Assembly: GCA_030524805.1 (NCBI GenBank)
Contig: JAUNFY010000009.1
Location: 1-62,542 of the forward strand
DNA: 62,542 bases
Origin: Bacteroidales bacterium
GTDB lineage: Bacteria; Bacteroidota; Bacteroidia; Bacteroidales; Muribaculaceae
Direction: 5' to 3'
The translations under genes were made by a program, and so were the position numbers. Numbering within the stretch: the stretch's first letter is position 1; the number at the start of each line of letters is the position of its first letter. The notes below the pieces were generated by a model that saw nothing but the letters and a program-made list of their open reading frames with translations, had not been told where the DNA came from and did not search any database. This document shows positions 8,201 to 46,248 of the stretch, in pieces.

Positions 8201-8417
8201 AGTGTGCATTTTTATGGATTGTTTCCACATTAGATTGTTTCTCGTTATTCGTAAATAAGTTTACGACTTTATTCTCTAAAACCGCTGTTGTAAAGAATCT
8301 TGCATGGCGGTCGGAGAAAAAATCAATCGCCAAAGAAAAAAACAATCAATGTGGAAAATCGTAAGGCACACTGCCCCGGTAGATCGTAAATGTCAGCAGA
8401 TGGAGCCCGGCCCGGAA

Positions 8418-36883: not shown

Positions 36884-38068
36884 ATGAAAAATCCAATGTT
36901 CGATATCCAATACGGACTCTTCGTGATCACTGCCAACGCCGACGGCCGCGACAACGGCTGCATCTCCAACACCCTGCAGCAGGTCACATGCACCCCCAAT
37001 CAGGTATCCGTATGCCTCAACAAGCAGAATTTCACCACCGGCCTTATCCAGCGTTCAGGCCGCTTCACCGCCTCCATCATCAGCGTGAAGGCCGACTTCA
37101 GCCTTTTCAAGCGCTTCGGTTTCCAGTCGGGCCGTGATGCCGACAAGTTCAAGGACTTCACCGGATGCCGCCGTGTGGCAAACGGAAATATGGCTGTCAC
37201 CGACGGCACCAACGCCTTCATCAGCGTGAAGGTGTCGCAGACTGTCGACCTCGGCACCCACCTGATGTTTATCGGCGAAGTCACCGAGATGGAATCGCTC
37301 TCCGAAGCAGCCTCAGTCACGTATTCCTACTATCTCGAACACATCAAGCCGCAGCCCGCTCCCGCAGCCGACAAGGACGCCGCAGGCCACACCGTATGGC
37401 GTTGCAAGGTGTGCGGTTTTGAGTATGTGGGCGATCAGATTCCCGACGACTTCGTGTGCCCCGTATGCAAGCATCCGGCCTCCGACTTCGAGAAGGTGAC
37501 TATCGACGACAACGTTTCCGACCATCCCACCAACCAGTATTCCGGCACCAAGACCGAGCGCAACCTTCAGGAAGCCTTTGCCGGAGAAAGCATGGCCCGC
37601 AACAAATACACCTTTTTCGCATCGGTGGCCAGAGCCAACGGCTACGAGCAGATTGCCGCTCTCTTCCTCAAGACGGCCGACAACGAGCGCGAACACGCCG
37701 AGCTGTGGTGCCGCGCACTCGGCGGCATAAGTCAGGACACTGCCGTCAATCTTCTGCATGCTGCCGAAGGCGAGAACTATGAATGGACCGACATGTACGA
37801 CCGTTTCGCCAAGGAGGCCGACGAAGAAGGGTTCCACAACCTTGCCGAGCAGTTCCGTGGTGTCGCGGCCATTGAGAAGCATCACGAGGATCGCTACCGT
37901 GCGTTGCTCCGCAATGTAGAGGCCCACGAGGTGTTCCGCAAGGCCGGTATTGTGGTCTGGGAATGCCGCAACTGCGGTCACATCTGCGTAGGCACCGAAG
38001 CCCCCGAGATCTGCCCCGTATGCTTCTACAAGCAAAGCTACTTCGAGATCCATCCCGATAACTATTGA
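36884..38068 (+). CDS. Flavin reductase-rubredoxin-rubrerythrin fusion
   Basis: 394 residues, cytoplasmic. Residues 1-155 are an FMN-dependent flavin reductase ([20 protein letters not shown], the high-molecular-weight rubredoxin type). Residues 172-205 are a rubredoxin with CKVCG and CPVCK. Residues 223-345 are a rubrerythrin diiron domain with ligand motifs [23 protein letters not shown] and [11 protein letters not shown]. Residues 358-392 are the C-terminal rubredoxin-like centre of rubrerythrin, CRNCG and CPVCF. Together this links NAD(P)H oxidation to peroxide reduction in one chain, the parts being separate proteins in most anaerobes. The protein should protect against oxygen or peroxide. 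It stands alone, after the glutamine synthetase gene. Confidence 0.93.
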
Positions 38069-38280: not shown

Positions 38281-38296
38281 CAGAAATTCCCAAAAC

Positions 38297-38389
38297 ACCT
38301 GAAACGACCCGAAAAAGTCCGTCAGAACTGTTAAAACACCCCTTTTAGGGGGTCTTCGCAGCCTGAAACGACCCAAAAAAGTTCGTCAG
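38297..38389 (+). repeat. 93-bp direct repeat, left copy (flanks ATPase/RloB pair)
   Basis: Matches 40198-40290 at 91 of 93 positions. Inside, a 28-base unit (CCTGAAACGACCC then a run of A and GTCCGTCAG) occurs twice, separated by a hairpin ACCCC...GGGGT. The two mismatches are one in that hairpin and one in the second unit. The left copy ends 25 bases before the predicted -7 box of the ATPase gene. Confidence 0.92.
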
Positions 38390-38413
38390 CCTTTATTTTT
38401 CAAAAAAAATGAT

Positions 38414-38421
38414 TACCTTTG
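38414..38421 (+). promoter_or_regulatory. Predicted -7 box of the ATPase/RloB pair
   Basis: TACCTTTG lies between the left direct repeat and the ATG at 38468. The -33 position falls at the junction with the repeat and is not a clear TTTG. Confidence 0.4.
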
Positions 38422-38467
38422 TGGCGAAGAATTTTTTTGTTTAAACAACTTCAATATCGACCCTCTT

Positions 38468-39634
38468 ATGATAATTTGTCTTCGCATAAAAAACTTCTAT
38501 TCATTGCGTGATTCCGCAGTGCTTGATTTCACTGCTGATTCAGGTTTTAGAAACTCGCAGGATTTTCTGCCCGAAAATCTGATTGATTTCTCAGGAGATA
38601 AATTTGTCAATGTGATAGGTATTTTCGGAAGCAATGCTGCCGGAAAATCGAATATGATAAAAGCTATTGATTGGTGTCGTGATCTGATACTCAAATCCCA
38701 CCTTTACAATGAAGGCGATGAATTAAACTATCAGCCCTTCAAGTTCGACAGCGGCAAGCCATCTTCTTTCTATATCGATTTCGTGGCAGATGGAATAGAA
38801 TATGAATATTCATTTGAGCTTTATGCCGGCAGGATAATATCGGAAGAATTGTACTATTATCCTCACAAGAGGCGGTCGAGGGTGTTCAGCCGCACCGCTA
38901 CCGATTCGTATGTCTTCAAGAAAGGAGTCATACAGCGCCCTGCCGAAGTGCAGGCGAATGTCGGTCCGAAGACGCTGTTCCTGAGCCGGGCAAGTTCCAT
39001 GGGCAGGGAAATAGCTCAGATTGTTTATAGATTCTTCCTCAATCAGATGGTGATTGGCCTGGATTCGGTCGACTTATCGAAATTGTCGGCTGCTGACTTC
39101 GACACTCACAAGTCGATTCTTCTGAAAGGGCTTGAGGTAAGCGATATCGACATTGTGGATATCAGGCTGGTCGAGGTGCAGCCCGGACAATACAGTCTGC
39201 AAAGTTTCCATCGTGAGAATCCGGAGATTGCTTTCGATTTCTTAAAGGAGGAATCGGAAGGCACGAAGCGGTTGATGCTGATGTTGATGTTGCTCTTGAG
39301 AAAAGTCATGGATGGGGCTACGTTTTTCCTCGATGAGTTTGATTTGAAACTGCATTTCCGCCTTTCTGAGTTTGTATTGAAGTTGGTGAAGGCTTCCGGG
39401 AAAGCGCAGATGGTATTCACCAGCCATAATCCGTTGCTGATCGATAAAGACTCTCTCCGGCCCGAGCAGATTGTGTTCGTCACCAAGCAGGTTGATGGCA
39501 ATTCTGAGTTTGTTCCGGTTTCTGATTATGAAGGAGTAGGCTCGAAGACCGACCTTCGGAAGGCCTATCTTCAAGGCCGGTTTGACGCCGTGCCTTATGT
39601 GGGAGATGCAAGAGATGTGTTGGCTGATTTATAG
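38468..39634 (+). CDS. AAA ATPase, AbiLi/RloA-like (candidate phage defence)
   Basis: 388 residues. ABC/SMC-type ATPase of the kind found in abortive-infection and OLD-like systems: Walker A GSNAAGKS at 54-61, a signature-like EESEGTKRL near 250, Walker B TFFLDEFD near 282 and a switch His in VFTSHNPLLID near 314. The N-terminus ICLRIKNFYSLRD is the standard opening of AAA15/AAA21 proteins. It is followed after 8 bases by a RloB-family gene, the same pairing as AbiLi/AbiLii. Codon use is visibly richer in A/T than in the genes on both sides. Direct repeats bracket the pair. The defence role is inferred from family and layout. Confidence 0.85.
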   Translation: MIICLRIKNFYSLRDSAVLDFTADSGFRNSQDFLPENLIDFSGDKFVNVIGIFGSNAAGKSNMIKAIDWCRDLILKSHLYNEGDELNYQPFKFDSGKPSSFYIDFVADGIEYEYSFELYAGRIISEELYYYPHKRRSRVFSRTATDSYVFKKGVIQRPAEVQANVGPKTLFLSRASSMGREIAQIVYRFFLNQMVIGLDSVDLSKLSAADFDTHKSILLKGLEVSDIDIVDIRLVEVQPGQYSLQSFHRENPEIAFDFLKEESEGTKRLMLMLMLLLRKVMDGATFFLDEFDLKLHFRLSEFVLKLVKASGKAQMVFTSHNPLLIDKDSLRPEQIVFVTKQVDGNSEFVPVSDYEGVGSKTDLRKAYLQGRFDAVPYVGDARDVLADL

Positions 39635-39642
39635 ACGGGCAG

Positions 39643-40203
39643 ATGCGGCAGCGTAAGTTTTCAATCAAAAGGCCTATCCGGGAAATTTTCCTGGTGATAT
39701 GTGAAGGCGAGACGGAGCGTGAGTATGTGGAGAAACTGAAACGCCACTACAGGCTCCCTGTGACGATAAAAACGAAAGTAAGCGGCAATAAGATAAATCA
39801 GCGTCTTGTGGCTCAATACATGGCGGAGTTGGGGATTGGCCGTGATGATGATTGCCGGGTGTTTTTTATATATGATGCGGATGTGGAGGAGATGGTGGAG
39901 AAACTGTCGAAACTTTCCGGTACTCTCATTCTGTCAAATCCCTGCATCGAATTGTGGTATGCACTGCATGTGAAAGACTATATGAAATCGCAGGATTCCG
40001 ATGGTATGGTGAGGTCACTTGTAGCATCTCATGCCGTGTGGAGCAAATACAGGAAGGGCCTGCTCACCGGCGATCAGGCCAGTTTCCTTATCAGCCGAAG
40101 GATGGATGCTGTGGCAAGAGCCCGCAGGTTGCCATGCCGCGGCAATCCATCGTCCAATATGTATCTTTTTGTCGAAGCCATGGAAGAGGCCAAAAATACC
40201 TGA
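39643..40203 (+). CDS. RloB-family protein (AbiLii-like)
   Basis: 186 residues. Starts MRQRKFSIKRPIREIFLVIC and continues EGETEREYVEKL (residues 21-32), the conserved Glu motif of RloB, which resembles a Toprim nuclease core; a second acidic motif is FFIYDADVEEM with Asp78 and Asp80, and SNPCIELWYALH near 98 is the family's most recognisable block. RloB proteins are thought to be the nuclease or effector partner of the adjacent ATPase. The last codon and the stop lie inside the right-hand copy of the 93-bp repeat, so the C-terminus is set by the repeat. Confidence 0.87.
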   Translation: MRQRKFSIKRPIREIFLVICEGETEREYVEKLKRHYRLPVTIKTKVSGNKINQRLVAQYMAELGIGRDDDCRVFFIYDADVEEMVEKLSKLSGTLILSNPCIELWYALHVKDYMKSQDSDGMVRSLVASHAVWSKYRKGLLTGDQASFLISRRMDAVARARRLPCRGNPSSNMYLFVEAMEEAKNT

Positions 40204-40290
40204 AACGACCCGAAAAAGTCCGTCAGAACTGTTAAAACACCCCTTTTATGGGGTCTTCGCAGCCTGAAACGACCCAAAAAAGTCCGTCAG
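40198..40290 (+). repeat. 93-bp direct repeat, right copy
   Basis: Second copy of the element at 38297-38389, same orientation, two mismatches. It provides the final Thr codon and TGA of the RloB gene. Confidence 0.92.
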
Positions 40291-40354: not shown

Positions 40355-41311
40355 TTACTTGCCCGACTTGAACAGTTGCTCGATCGACCCGAGCGACGAA
40401 AGCACCGAAGTCGCCTCGTAGGGAATATACACTGTCTTGTTGTCCTGCCCCGAAGTCATGGTCTTGAGAGTCTCGATATATTTCTGGGCAAGCAGATAGG
40501 CTGCCGGGTCGGTCTGCGACTGCGCCACTGCCTCCGCCACATTCCGGATGGCATCCGCCTCAGCCTGTGCGCGAAGCACCTGCGCCCGCGCCTCACCTTC
40601 GGCCTTCAATATCGCAGCCTGCTTCTCAGCCTCAGCCTTGTTGATCTGCGACATCTTCTGTCCTTCCGAACGCAATATCAGCGACTGCTTCTCGCCCTCC
40701 GCATTCAGGATCTCAGCCCTTCGGTTGCGCTCCGCCTGCATCTGCTTCTCCATCGCCACGCGCACACTCTCCGGAGGCGTGATATCCTGCAGCTCCACAC
40801 GGTTCACCTTCACGCCCCATTTGTTGGTAGCGTCGTCAAGGATAGCCTGAAGTTTCGCGTTGATGGTGTCGCGCGAGGTCAGCGTCTCGTCAAGCTCCAG
40901 CTCGCCTATCACGTTGCGCAGCGACGTCTGCGTCAGTTTCTCTATCGCATTGGGCAGATTCTCGATCTCATACACCGACTTCTTCGGGTCTACGATCTGG
41001 AAATAAAGAAGCGCGTTGATTTCCGTGGTCACGTTGTCGCGGGTGATCACCTGCTGCGAAGGAAAGTCATACACCTGTTCGCGAAGGTCGATCACGCTTG
41101 TGGTCGTGATCCGAGTATGCGTGCGCGTGTAGATCACTTTCGGCTTGTCGATGAAAGGAATGATGAAATTCAGACCAGGCTGAAGCACTGAATGAAACTT
41201 TCCAAGGCGTTCCACAACCTTTGTCTCCGACTGGGGCACTACCTTCACCCCCGCCATGATCACCACCACCACCAGGGCAATGATGAATCCCGCTATAACC
41301 AATGTGTTCAT
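40355..41311 (-). CDS. SPFH/band-7 membrane protein (QmcA/stomatin-like)
   Basis: 318 residues. One N-terminal membrane segment (TLVIAGFIIALVVVVIMAGV), then the band-7 domain (QSETKVVERLGKFHSVLQPG, RITTTSVIDLREQVYDFPSQ) and a long Ala/Glu/Arg-rich coiled coil (EAEKQAAILKAEGEARAQVL) typical of flotillin-like scaffolds. Such proteins form large rings at the inner membrane and are usually paired with an NfeD protein, as here. Role in membrane organisation or protease control is inferred from the family. Confidence 0.93.
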   Translation of the reverse strand: MNTLVIAGFIIALVVVVIMAGVKVVPQSETKVVERLGKFHSVLQPGLNFIIPFIDKPKVIYTRTHTRITTTSVIDLREQVYDFPSQQVITRDNVTTEINALLYFQIVDPKKSVYEIENLPNAIEKLTQTSLRNVIGELELDETLTSRDTINAKLQAILDDATNKWGVKVNRVELQDITPPESVRVAMEKQMQAERNRRAEILNAEGEKQSLILRSEGQKMSQINKAEAEKQAAILKAEGEARAQVLRAQAEADAIRNVAEAVAQSQTDPAAYLLAQKYIETLKTMTSGQDNKTVYIPYEATSVLSSLGSIEQLFKSGK

Positions 41312-44373: not shown

Positions 44374-44432
44374 CGTTATCTCACGCTGTGCTCACCCCGG
44401 CCGGTACCGAGCCAGCCATTACCGCGTCAGCC

Positions 44433-44461
44433 GGTACCGCGCCGATCTCCGAGCGGCGCCC
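44433..44461. repeat. GCGCCG-type hairpin repeat, copy 1
   Basis: GCGCCG, loop ATCTCCGAG, CGGCGC, preceded by GGTACC and followed by CCCAAAGCACCATCCCC. The same hairpin with identical loop occurs at 46182, 51872 and 51924. After it, 44475-44504 is a microrepeat of CATCGTGCATCGTGCATTG type reaching the stop of the next gene. Confidence 0.85.
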
Positions 44462-44504
44462 CAAAGCACCATCCCCCATCGTGCATCGTGCATTGTGCAT
44501 TGAG

Positions 44505-46169: not shown

Positions 46170-46181
46170 GAAGCCCGGCCC

Positions 46182-46210
46182 GGTAACGCGCCGATCTCCG
46201 AGCGGCGCCC
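46182..46210. repeat. GCGCCG-type hairpin repeat, copy 2
   Basis: GCGCCG (46188-46193), loop ATCTCCGAG, CGGCGC (46203-46208); the following AAAGCACCATCCCC matches copy 1, so the repeated unit extends past the hairpin. Confidence 0.85.
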
Positions 46211-46248
46211 AAAAGCACCATCCCCTATTCAAAATTCGACACTACAAA

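Follow-up and report, generated by a model that had tools for sequence, protein, structure and literature searches.

An AbiL-type gene pair bracketed by direct repeats in Muribaculaceae, a probable recombinase-less cassette with one-repeat alleles in relatives

The abortive infection system AbiL of Lactococcus lactis is summarized in PMC10440598 as an AbiLi ATPase together with an AbiLii protein of the RloB type. The closest prior idea for the arrangement described here comes from restriction-modification genes, for which passages of PMC3874152 and PMC3031569 (citing Nobusato 2000 and Furuta 2010) outline insertion with a long, variable target duplication. In both cases defence genes stand between direct repeats on the order of 100 bp, but in that process the repeat is target DNA, whereas in the clade of loci described here one repeat family recurs at many sites. 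Since such insertion has already been outlined for restriction-modification genes, the mode of mobility, which the original prediction thought possibly new, may or may not be so. The pdif modules of Acinetobacter, as outlined, are also small gene modules between repeated sites that are moved in trans, by XerCD, but their sites are Xer (dif-like) sites as against direct repeats of 93–148 nt in our clade. LTR elements have terminal direct repeats and leave solo LTRs as deletion scars; unlike them, the AbiL cassette has no reverse transcriptase or integrase, and its cargo is bacterial defence. In integron gene cassettes the gene is directly followed by a repeat that partly folds, a layout shared by the AbiL cassette, but there is no integrase among the six neighbours of AbiL and no array in the clade. 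A composite transposon was rejected, the repeats of 93–101 nt being too short for a transposase gene. The titles and opening parts of abstracts covered by our literature search describe no repeat-bracketed AbiL cassette. Within that scope, and as far as the searches reach, the finding of a repeat borne by the element, together with alleles of one repeat at several sites, is new.

The window, by which we mean the whole stretch of 62,542 nucleotides analysed (contig JAUNFY010000009.1 of a Muribaculaceae genome), carries the pair and its repeats at the positions given in Table 1. By profile the pair is an AbiL-type cassette, in agreement with the composition originally proposed: PADLOC and Pfam assign the genes to AbiLi and to AbiLii/RloB. 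The likeness to the AbiL system as summarized is one of gene composition and order; the window pair differs in standing on a chromosome-type contig and within a direct-repeat bracket, and its activity is putative. PARIS (AriA/AriB) was tried as an identity and rejected: the ATPase also matches AriA (4.5e-27), but the only matches of its partner are to RloB (Pfam) and to AbiLii (PADLOC), and an AriB-type partner is presumably a DUF4435 protein. The window ATPase has the motifs GSNAAGKS, DEFD and SHN, with G59, K60, D289, E290, S319 and H320 conserved without exception across 14 ATPases, and RloB residues C20-E21-G22, E25, D78 and D80 are invariant across 18 proteins; we take these conserved motifs of both proteins to be catalytic. 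Against the sequences of solved structures the ATPase gave a single weak match, to an SMC protein (E 0.0055), and RloB gave none.

Table 1. Positions of the cassette features and adjoining genes in the window
Feature	Position	Strand	Evidence
Left neighbour, flavin reductase-rubrerythrin fusion, outside cassette	36884..38068	+	Pfam
Left terminal direct repeat	38289..38389 (core 38297-38389)	+	97/101 matches to right copy; core 91/93
28-base unit, copy 1 of left repeat	38298..38325	+	
28-base unit, copy 2 of left repeat, 2 mismatches	38362..38389	+	
Promoter-type motif TACCTTTG (TAnnTTTG), shortly 3' of left repeat	38414..38421	+	
AAA_21/ABC-type ATPase, AbiLi-like, 388 aa	38468..39634	+	PF13304 1.1e-27; PADLOC AbiLi 1.1e-72
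RloB / AbiLii-like protein, 186 aa	39643..40203	+	PF13707 1.8e-20; PADLOC AbiLii 1.9e-22
Right terminal direct repeat	40190..40290 (core 40198-40290)	+	pairs with left copy, 97/101
28-base unit, copy 1 of right repeat	40199..40226	+	
28-base unit, copy 2 of right repeat, 1 mismatch	40263..40290	+	
Right neighbour, SPFH/Band 7 protein, outside cassette	40355..41311	-	Pfam

The two genes are separated by 8 bases and are AT-richer than their surroundings, as had been noticed: the G+C content of positions 38468–40203 is 46.7%, against 57.6% and 55.7% in the two neighbouring genes. The left repeat had been expected to end before a promoter, and it is indeed followed by a motif of the TAnnTTTG type, a class that we take to be the Bacteroidales -7 box. 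Of the 16 loci that have at least 100 nt of upstream sequence, 12 have such a motif no more than 110 nt ahead of the ATPase start. At the other end, the coordinates bear out the right repeat as the source of the RloB stop codon, which in the window lies inside that repeat. Of 19 loci, 16 have the stop within the opening bases of the repeat, the exceptions being genomes G082 and G005, and G111, which is without a right repeat. Pfam found neither a recombinase nor an integrase among six neighbouring genes, so that the claimed absence of a recombinase stands for those six.

The two repeats of the window have the same orientation, and their starts are 1,901 bases apart. The identity of 91 in 93 first reported for them was exact on recount, and in the extended form listed in Table 1 the two copies match with a BLAST E value of 4e-44. 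Each copy is composite as described, with all four of the 28-base units located; none of 100 shuffled versions of the window gave a match, and a search with a 27-base unit allowing up to 3 mismatches found just the four known positions in the genome of the window. The hairpin proposed inside the repeat can be drawn, but the fold of the window copy is no stronger than that of shuffled sequence (z 0.21). At E ≤ 0.001 the genome (a 2.9-Mb assembly, 95% complete) contains only these two copies. The original prediction had counted a lack of repeats elsewhere in the genome against itself, and that lack is real; yet a single-copy cassette predicts just that, so it does not damage the cassette reading.

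The repeat can be followed through the genus. A DNA search with the window repeat matched 11 of 111 genus genomes, and a profile (R1) built from 17 copies, under strict filters by which weak copies may have been lost, matched 44 of them at E ≤ 0.05, including 23 at E ≤ 1e-9. Two of the 21 weaker genomes, G121 and G048, where the match adjoins an AbiL pair, were taken in, and the rest are uncounted. None of the 23 has a second repeat site at E ≤ 1e-9 (the site of G099 is spread over two contigs). The ATPase was found in 24 of the 111 genomes at E ≤ 1e-40; 17 of these ATPases are at least 52% identical (two are partial), and 7 are 42–45% identical over the matched stretch. A scan of genome contigs gave 44 loci. 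Most of the near ones had already been counted, and the near clade of the window's AbiL gained three, namely L109 (Duncaniella sp.) and two MAGs, L110 labelled Barnesiella and L117 labelled Clostridium, to reach 20 loci. Each relative compared is the representative genome of its species, in many cases a MAG, and several of the repeats coincide with contig ends.

Comparing the DNA to the left and right of each pair directly, with profile R1 set aside, revealed direct repeats on both sides in 14 of the 15 near-clade loci with both ends assembled, 65–148 nt long and 82–99% identical. The fifteenth, G111, has the left copy and no right copy. Contig ends cut the remaining five loci, of which G082 and G099 retain a partial left and a right copy, G057 a left copy, and G109 and G048 a right copy. 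Displaced controls at 17 near-clade loci gave 2 hits in 38, one being a repeat pair in G121 around another candidate defence gene. We also screened 306 distinct ORFs of at least 250 aa with enough flank, drawn from 56 stretches. Brackets surrounded 11 of 13 AbiL ATPases and 2 of 8 DUF4143 ATPases; among the remaining 285 ORFs 2 were bracketed, one of them a RhuM-like gene of G012 (Fisher p 2e-16 for 11/13 against 2/285). The two AbiL misses were G111 and G005, and G005 is bracketed in the direct flank comparison, its ORF start having been placed too far upstream in the screen. The background of this screen is not random, because many stretches were chosen for holding the repeat; the 20 stretches from the window's own genome are its less biased part. 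The bracket is a clade-wide property of the window's AbiL clade. No such bracket surrounds the 7 AbiL pairs that are more distantly related within the genus, as far as their flanks extend (one is truncated on its right side, the right flank of three is 322–431 nt long, and one shows a 29-nt match). Outside those 7, the distant pair L139 (39% identical) has a 97-nt bracket, 91% identical, of different sequence and with a palindromic core.

Alleles with one repeat and no genes, by which the original prediction proposed to recognise gain or loss of the cassette, exist. Solo repeats without an AbiL pair are found in six of the 111 genus genomes (G023, G044, G092, G094, G110 and G116; in G110 a distant AbiL lies on a different contig) and in seven further genomes of a 397-genome family sample (G128, G314, G222, G170, G363, G193 and G175), where ATPase and RloB are absent from the fetched stretch. 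G113, with a contig end, is uncounted. Five of the solo genomes sit at cassette sites of relatives. The cleanest case is G314 against L109, where alignments of 4,479 bp (left flank and repeat) and 4,427 bp (repeat and right flank), both 88% identical, overlap in the repeat alone. G193 and G175 have one repeat and alongside it the same two genes as L110, named from sequence as presumably Bax-inhibitor-like and POT-transporter-like. G110 has one repeat after trmD, the site of the G060 and G098 cassettes, and G116 has none at that place. G094 matches the site of G095, G014 and G109 by one checkable flank, its left flank being just 116 nt and not matching theirs. Sequence like the end of rloB precedes the solo of G092; the other solos have at most faint traces. 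The gltX site offers a series, with half a repeat in G291, one in G314, two plus genes in L109 and none in 12 others (15 loci of 23 found); those 12 are not clean pre-insertion sites, because the right-hand neighbour is also absent from them. At the window's own site no empty allele was found, the empty sites having come from other loci. The SPFH gene occurs in 40 of the 111 genomes, and since the rubrerythrin gene is missing beside it (to 1.5 kb beyond) in the loci of 29 relatives, this site gives no verdict. Judged from these alignments, the proposal of a removable cassette is supported at the other loci. The direction of change is our reading of the alleles; a pre-existing solo repeat serving as a landing site would look identical.

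The copies within a locus resemble one another more than they resemble copies elsewhere. Left–right identity is 94–99% in 12 of the 14 loci (85% in G060 and 65% in G041), the mean identity of copies from different loci is 62%, and the best match of 25 of 28 copies is their own partner. At the site shared by G095 and G014, left–right identities are 97% and 96%, as compared with 87% left–left and 90% right–right, and the differences largely consist of the central loop, which is inverted in both G014 copies. At the site of G098 and G060, left–right identities are 98% and 85%, left–left 81% and right–right 86%, and the left copy of G098 matches the right copy of G060 at 88%, above G060's own pair; here the loop of one G060 copy is flipped relative to the other (L100:6311-6396 and 8208-8289). 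On these comparisons the copies seem to exchange sequence after insertion, sometimes incompletely. Inversion of the central hairpin's loop (G060 in L100; G095 in L094 versus G014 in L095) is the outcome expected if the template were switched at an inverted repeat. The left copy also carries, in 7 of 13 loci, about 12–48 nt matching the end of rloB, including the stop codon, so that this repeat resembles a duplicate of the right end of the cassette itself. The unit-core-unit build is retained in L117 and G121 despite changed sequence, which hints at a function beyond homology, possibly as a recognised structure. A conserved RNA structure of the repeat was considered and is unsupported: RNAalifold gave no consensus pair on the repeat copies, the central hairpin is strong in 3 of eight singly folded copies (L036, L038 and L011), and the two Rfam matches, far below cut-off and outside the repeat, are not credible.

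Comparing the proteins encoded in the 5-kb flanks, the 20 near-clade loci fall into 16 apparently different sites, 3 of them judged from one flank (G057, G082 and G048); shared sites are those of G095/G014/G109, G098/G060 and G005/G099. A scan of the family found the repeat in 27 of 397 genomes at E ≤ 1e-6 and in five of 30 genera, with cassettes in three (g1, g19 and g23). The ATPases do not simply follow their hosts. G041, G057, G060 and G098 have TrmD proteins 94–97% identical, yet G041 and G060 are 96% identical in TrmD and 52% in the ATPase, whereas the ATPases of G041 and G000 are 68% identical; in the ATPase tree G041 joins the window's ATPase (support 99/98), with G060 and G098 placed elsewhere. 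Likewise, G118 and G121 are 95% identical in TrmD and 51% in the ATPase. Over 120 pairs from 16 genomes the TrmD and ATPase identities are weakly correlated (rho 0.25), so some inheritance may be vertical. The discordance of the two trees, read with the TrmD tree drawn open at 9 of its 13 inner branches and the G057 ATPase partial, supports horizontal transfer plus some vertical inheritance. A phage or plasmid carrier was rejected: one exact 25-base pattern had no match in viral contigs, two relatives of the ATPase from viral contigs, at 41% identity, lack a bracket, and the best ATPase relatives among the plasmid and phage matches listed are less than 35% identical.

Other candidate defence genes are bracketed as well. 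The RhuM-like gene of G012 (PF13310; PADLOC PDC-S05; L011/L107:7717-9123) is flanked on either side by a copy of the AbiL repeat family, in the opposite orientation and with a 233-nt duplication. DUF4143 ATPases (PDC-S01; the PDC entries of PADLOC are candidate systems) are bracketed by direct repeats other than the AbiL family in three genomes: by 105-nt repeats, 88% identical and of different sequence, on contig C35 of the window's own genome (L282:3225-4950); by 107-nt repeats in G121 (L099:8149-11424), in a block that starts 10 bases after the AbiL cassette; and by 128-nt repeats in G118 (L033:14976-17714).

Several smaller repeats were seen along the way. G110 has a PDC-S27-like ATPase between 56-nt direct repeats (L105:3979-6682), adjoining its solo AbiL repeat, and short repeats of the CCTCTTCCTTTTTT type follow trmD in G110, G116, G060 and G098. 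In G044 a PDC-S02-like gene (L036:4420-6942) lies between 85-nt stretches of 84% identity, the first of which falls at a coding region's end, and the solo AbiL repeat is 3 kb further along. The window itself has a 49-nt GC-rich direct repeat (44431-44479 and 46180-46228; 94% identical, 1.7 kb apart) with two small genes between its copies; PADLOC found nothing for the longer of the two, and L286 has GC-rich sequence similar to this repeat.

We consider it probable that the locus is a self-contained AbiL cassette of about 2 kb, comprising promoter, ATPase and RloB, with its own terminal repeats and no recombinase, which is lost by recombination between the repeats. Repeats of such length 2 kb apart suffice for homologous recombination. 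An exchange between them would delete one repeat and both genes and leave a solo repeat, like a solo LTR, and the same exchanges would homogenise the copies. Homologous recombination is the simplest agent of loss; a recombinase acting in trans would give the same alleles. Excision may yield a circle of the genes and one repeat that could go back in at a scar; new sites might be reached through illegitimate insertion, with a recombinase working in trans, or on a carrier element. Judged by homology, the likely role of the ATPase is to sense infection and to restrain or release an RloB effector of the Toprim type, and by analogy with AbiL we infer phage defence by the pair. Weak points of this explanation include G111, which lacks the right copy, the copies of only 65% identity in G041 and 85% in G060, the unit-core-unit build that persists through sequence change, and the lack of an empty allele at the window's own site.

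The alternative that survives best, while unlikely, is that the repeats are sites of a recombinase encoded elsewhere, as with integrons or pdif modules; the genes and one site would be excised as a circle and enter single sites, and unit-core-unit would be the recognition structure. It would account for the one relative orientation shared by repeat and genes in the near-clade loci, for an RloB stop set in the first bases of the repeat as in gene-plus-site cassettes, for a unit-core-unit build that outlasts sequence change, and for the presence of the RhuM-like gene of G012 between repeats of the same family. It sits poorly with cassettes at 16 apparently different sites and with the finding of no set of multiple empty sites within one genome. 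The six neighbours encode no recombinase, the identical stretch (93–148 nt in most loci) exceeds what we understand such sites to need, and several copies are missing the strong central hairpin.

Insertion with a long target duplication, the repeats being duplicated target DNA, we regard as quite improbable for the window's clade. The process is outlined for restriction-modification genes in the passages of PMC3874152 and PMC3031569 cited above. In rumen Bacteroidales (L133:1468-6852 and L132:4755-8704), PDC-S01 and AbiL genes stand in series, alternating with variable pieces of a 92-aa gene, and this array looks like insertion of the kind outlined there. But one repeat family occurs at many unrelated sites in the window's clade, so the repeat travels with the cassette and is not copied from each target. 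We give equally little credence to the repeats as regulatory or insulating elements of the AbiL operon (terminator-like, or binding sites), with gene conversion between them and deletion as a by-product. The left copy does end near a promoter-type motif and the right copy mostly begins at the RloB stop, and in some copies the reverse strand can be read as a hairpin with a T-run after it; against this, AbiL pairs that are more distantly related within the genus lack such repeats as far as their flanks extend, and neither Rfam, consensus folding nor the mixed single folds lend the repeat a credible structure. That an ordinary dispersed repeat (MITE or REP) flanks the pair twice by chance, as the solo copies in 13 genomes might suggest, would be very surprising, and this reading was rejected, being contradicted by the single site per genome in the 23 genus genomes at E ≤ 1e-9, by the bracket kept in 14 of 15 loci, by the five solos at cassette sites of relatives and by the ORF screen. 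A Y1 transposase (PF01797) lies amid several intergenic repeats on contig C25 of the window's own genome (L280:1-1510).

Returning to the cassette that carries its own repeats, it may be one of a class, an extension that we offer tentatively and with rather more doubt than belief. Recombinase-less mobile defence cassettes would have element-borne repeats in the manner of LTRs, occur once per genome, be homogenised, be shed leaving a scar and re-enter; in Bacteroidales the class would include AbiL, the RhuM-type PDC-S05 and the DUF4143-type PDC-S01. If true, it would give hosts a built-in means of shedding costly immunity. Defence systems turn over fast, usually on phages, plasmids or transposons. 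Here a two-gene defence system seemingly brings its own means of precise loss, which raises the question of which enzyme, if any, moves such elements. The one-repeat scars can be counted, six in the 111 genus genomes plus seven more in the 397-genome family sample, and through them the cost and turnover of abortive-infection immunity would become measurable in natural populations.
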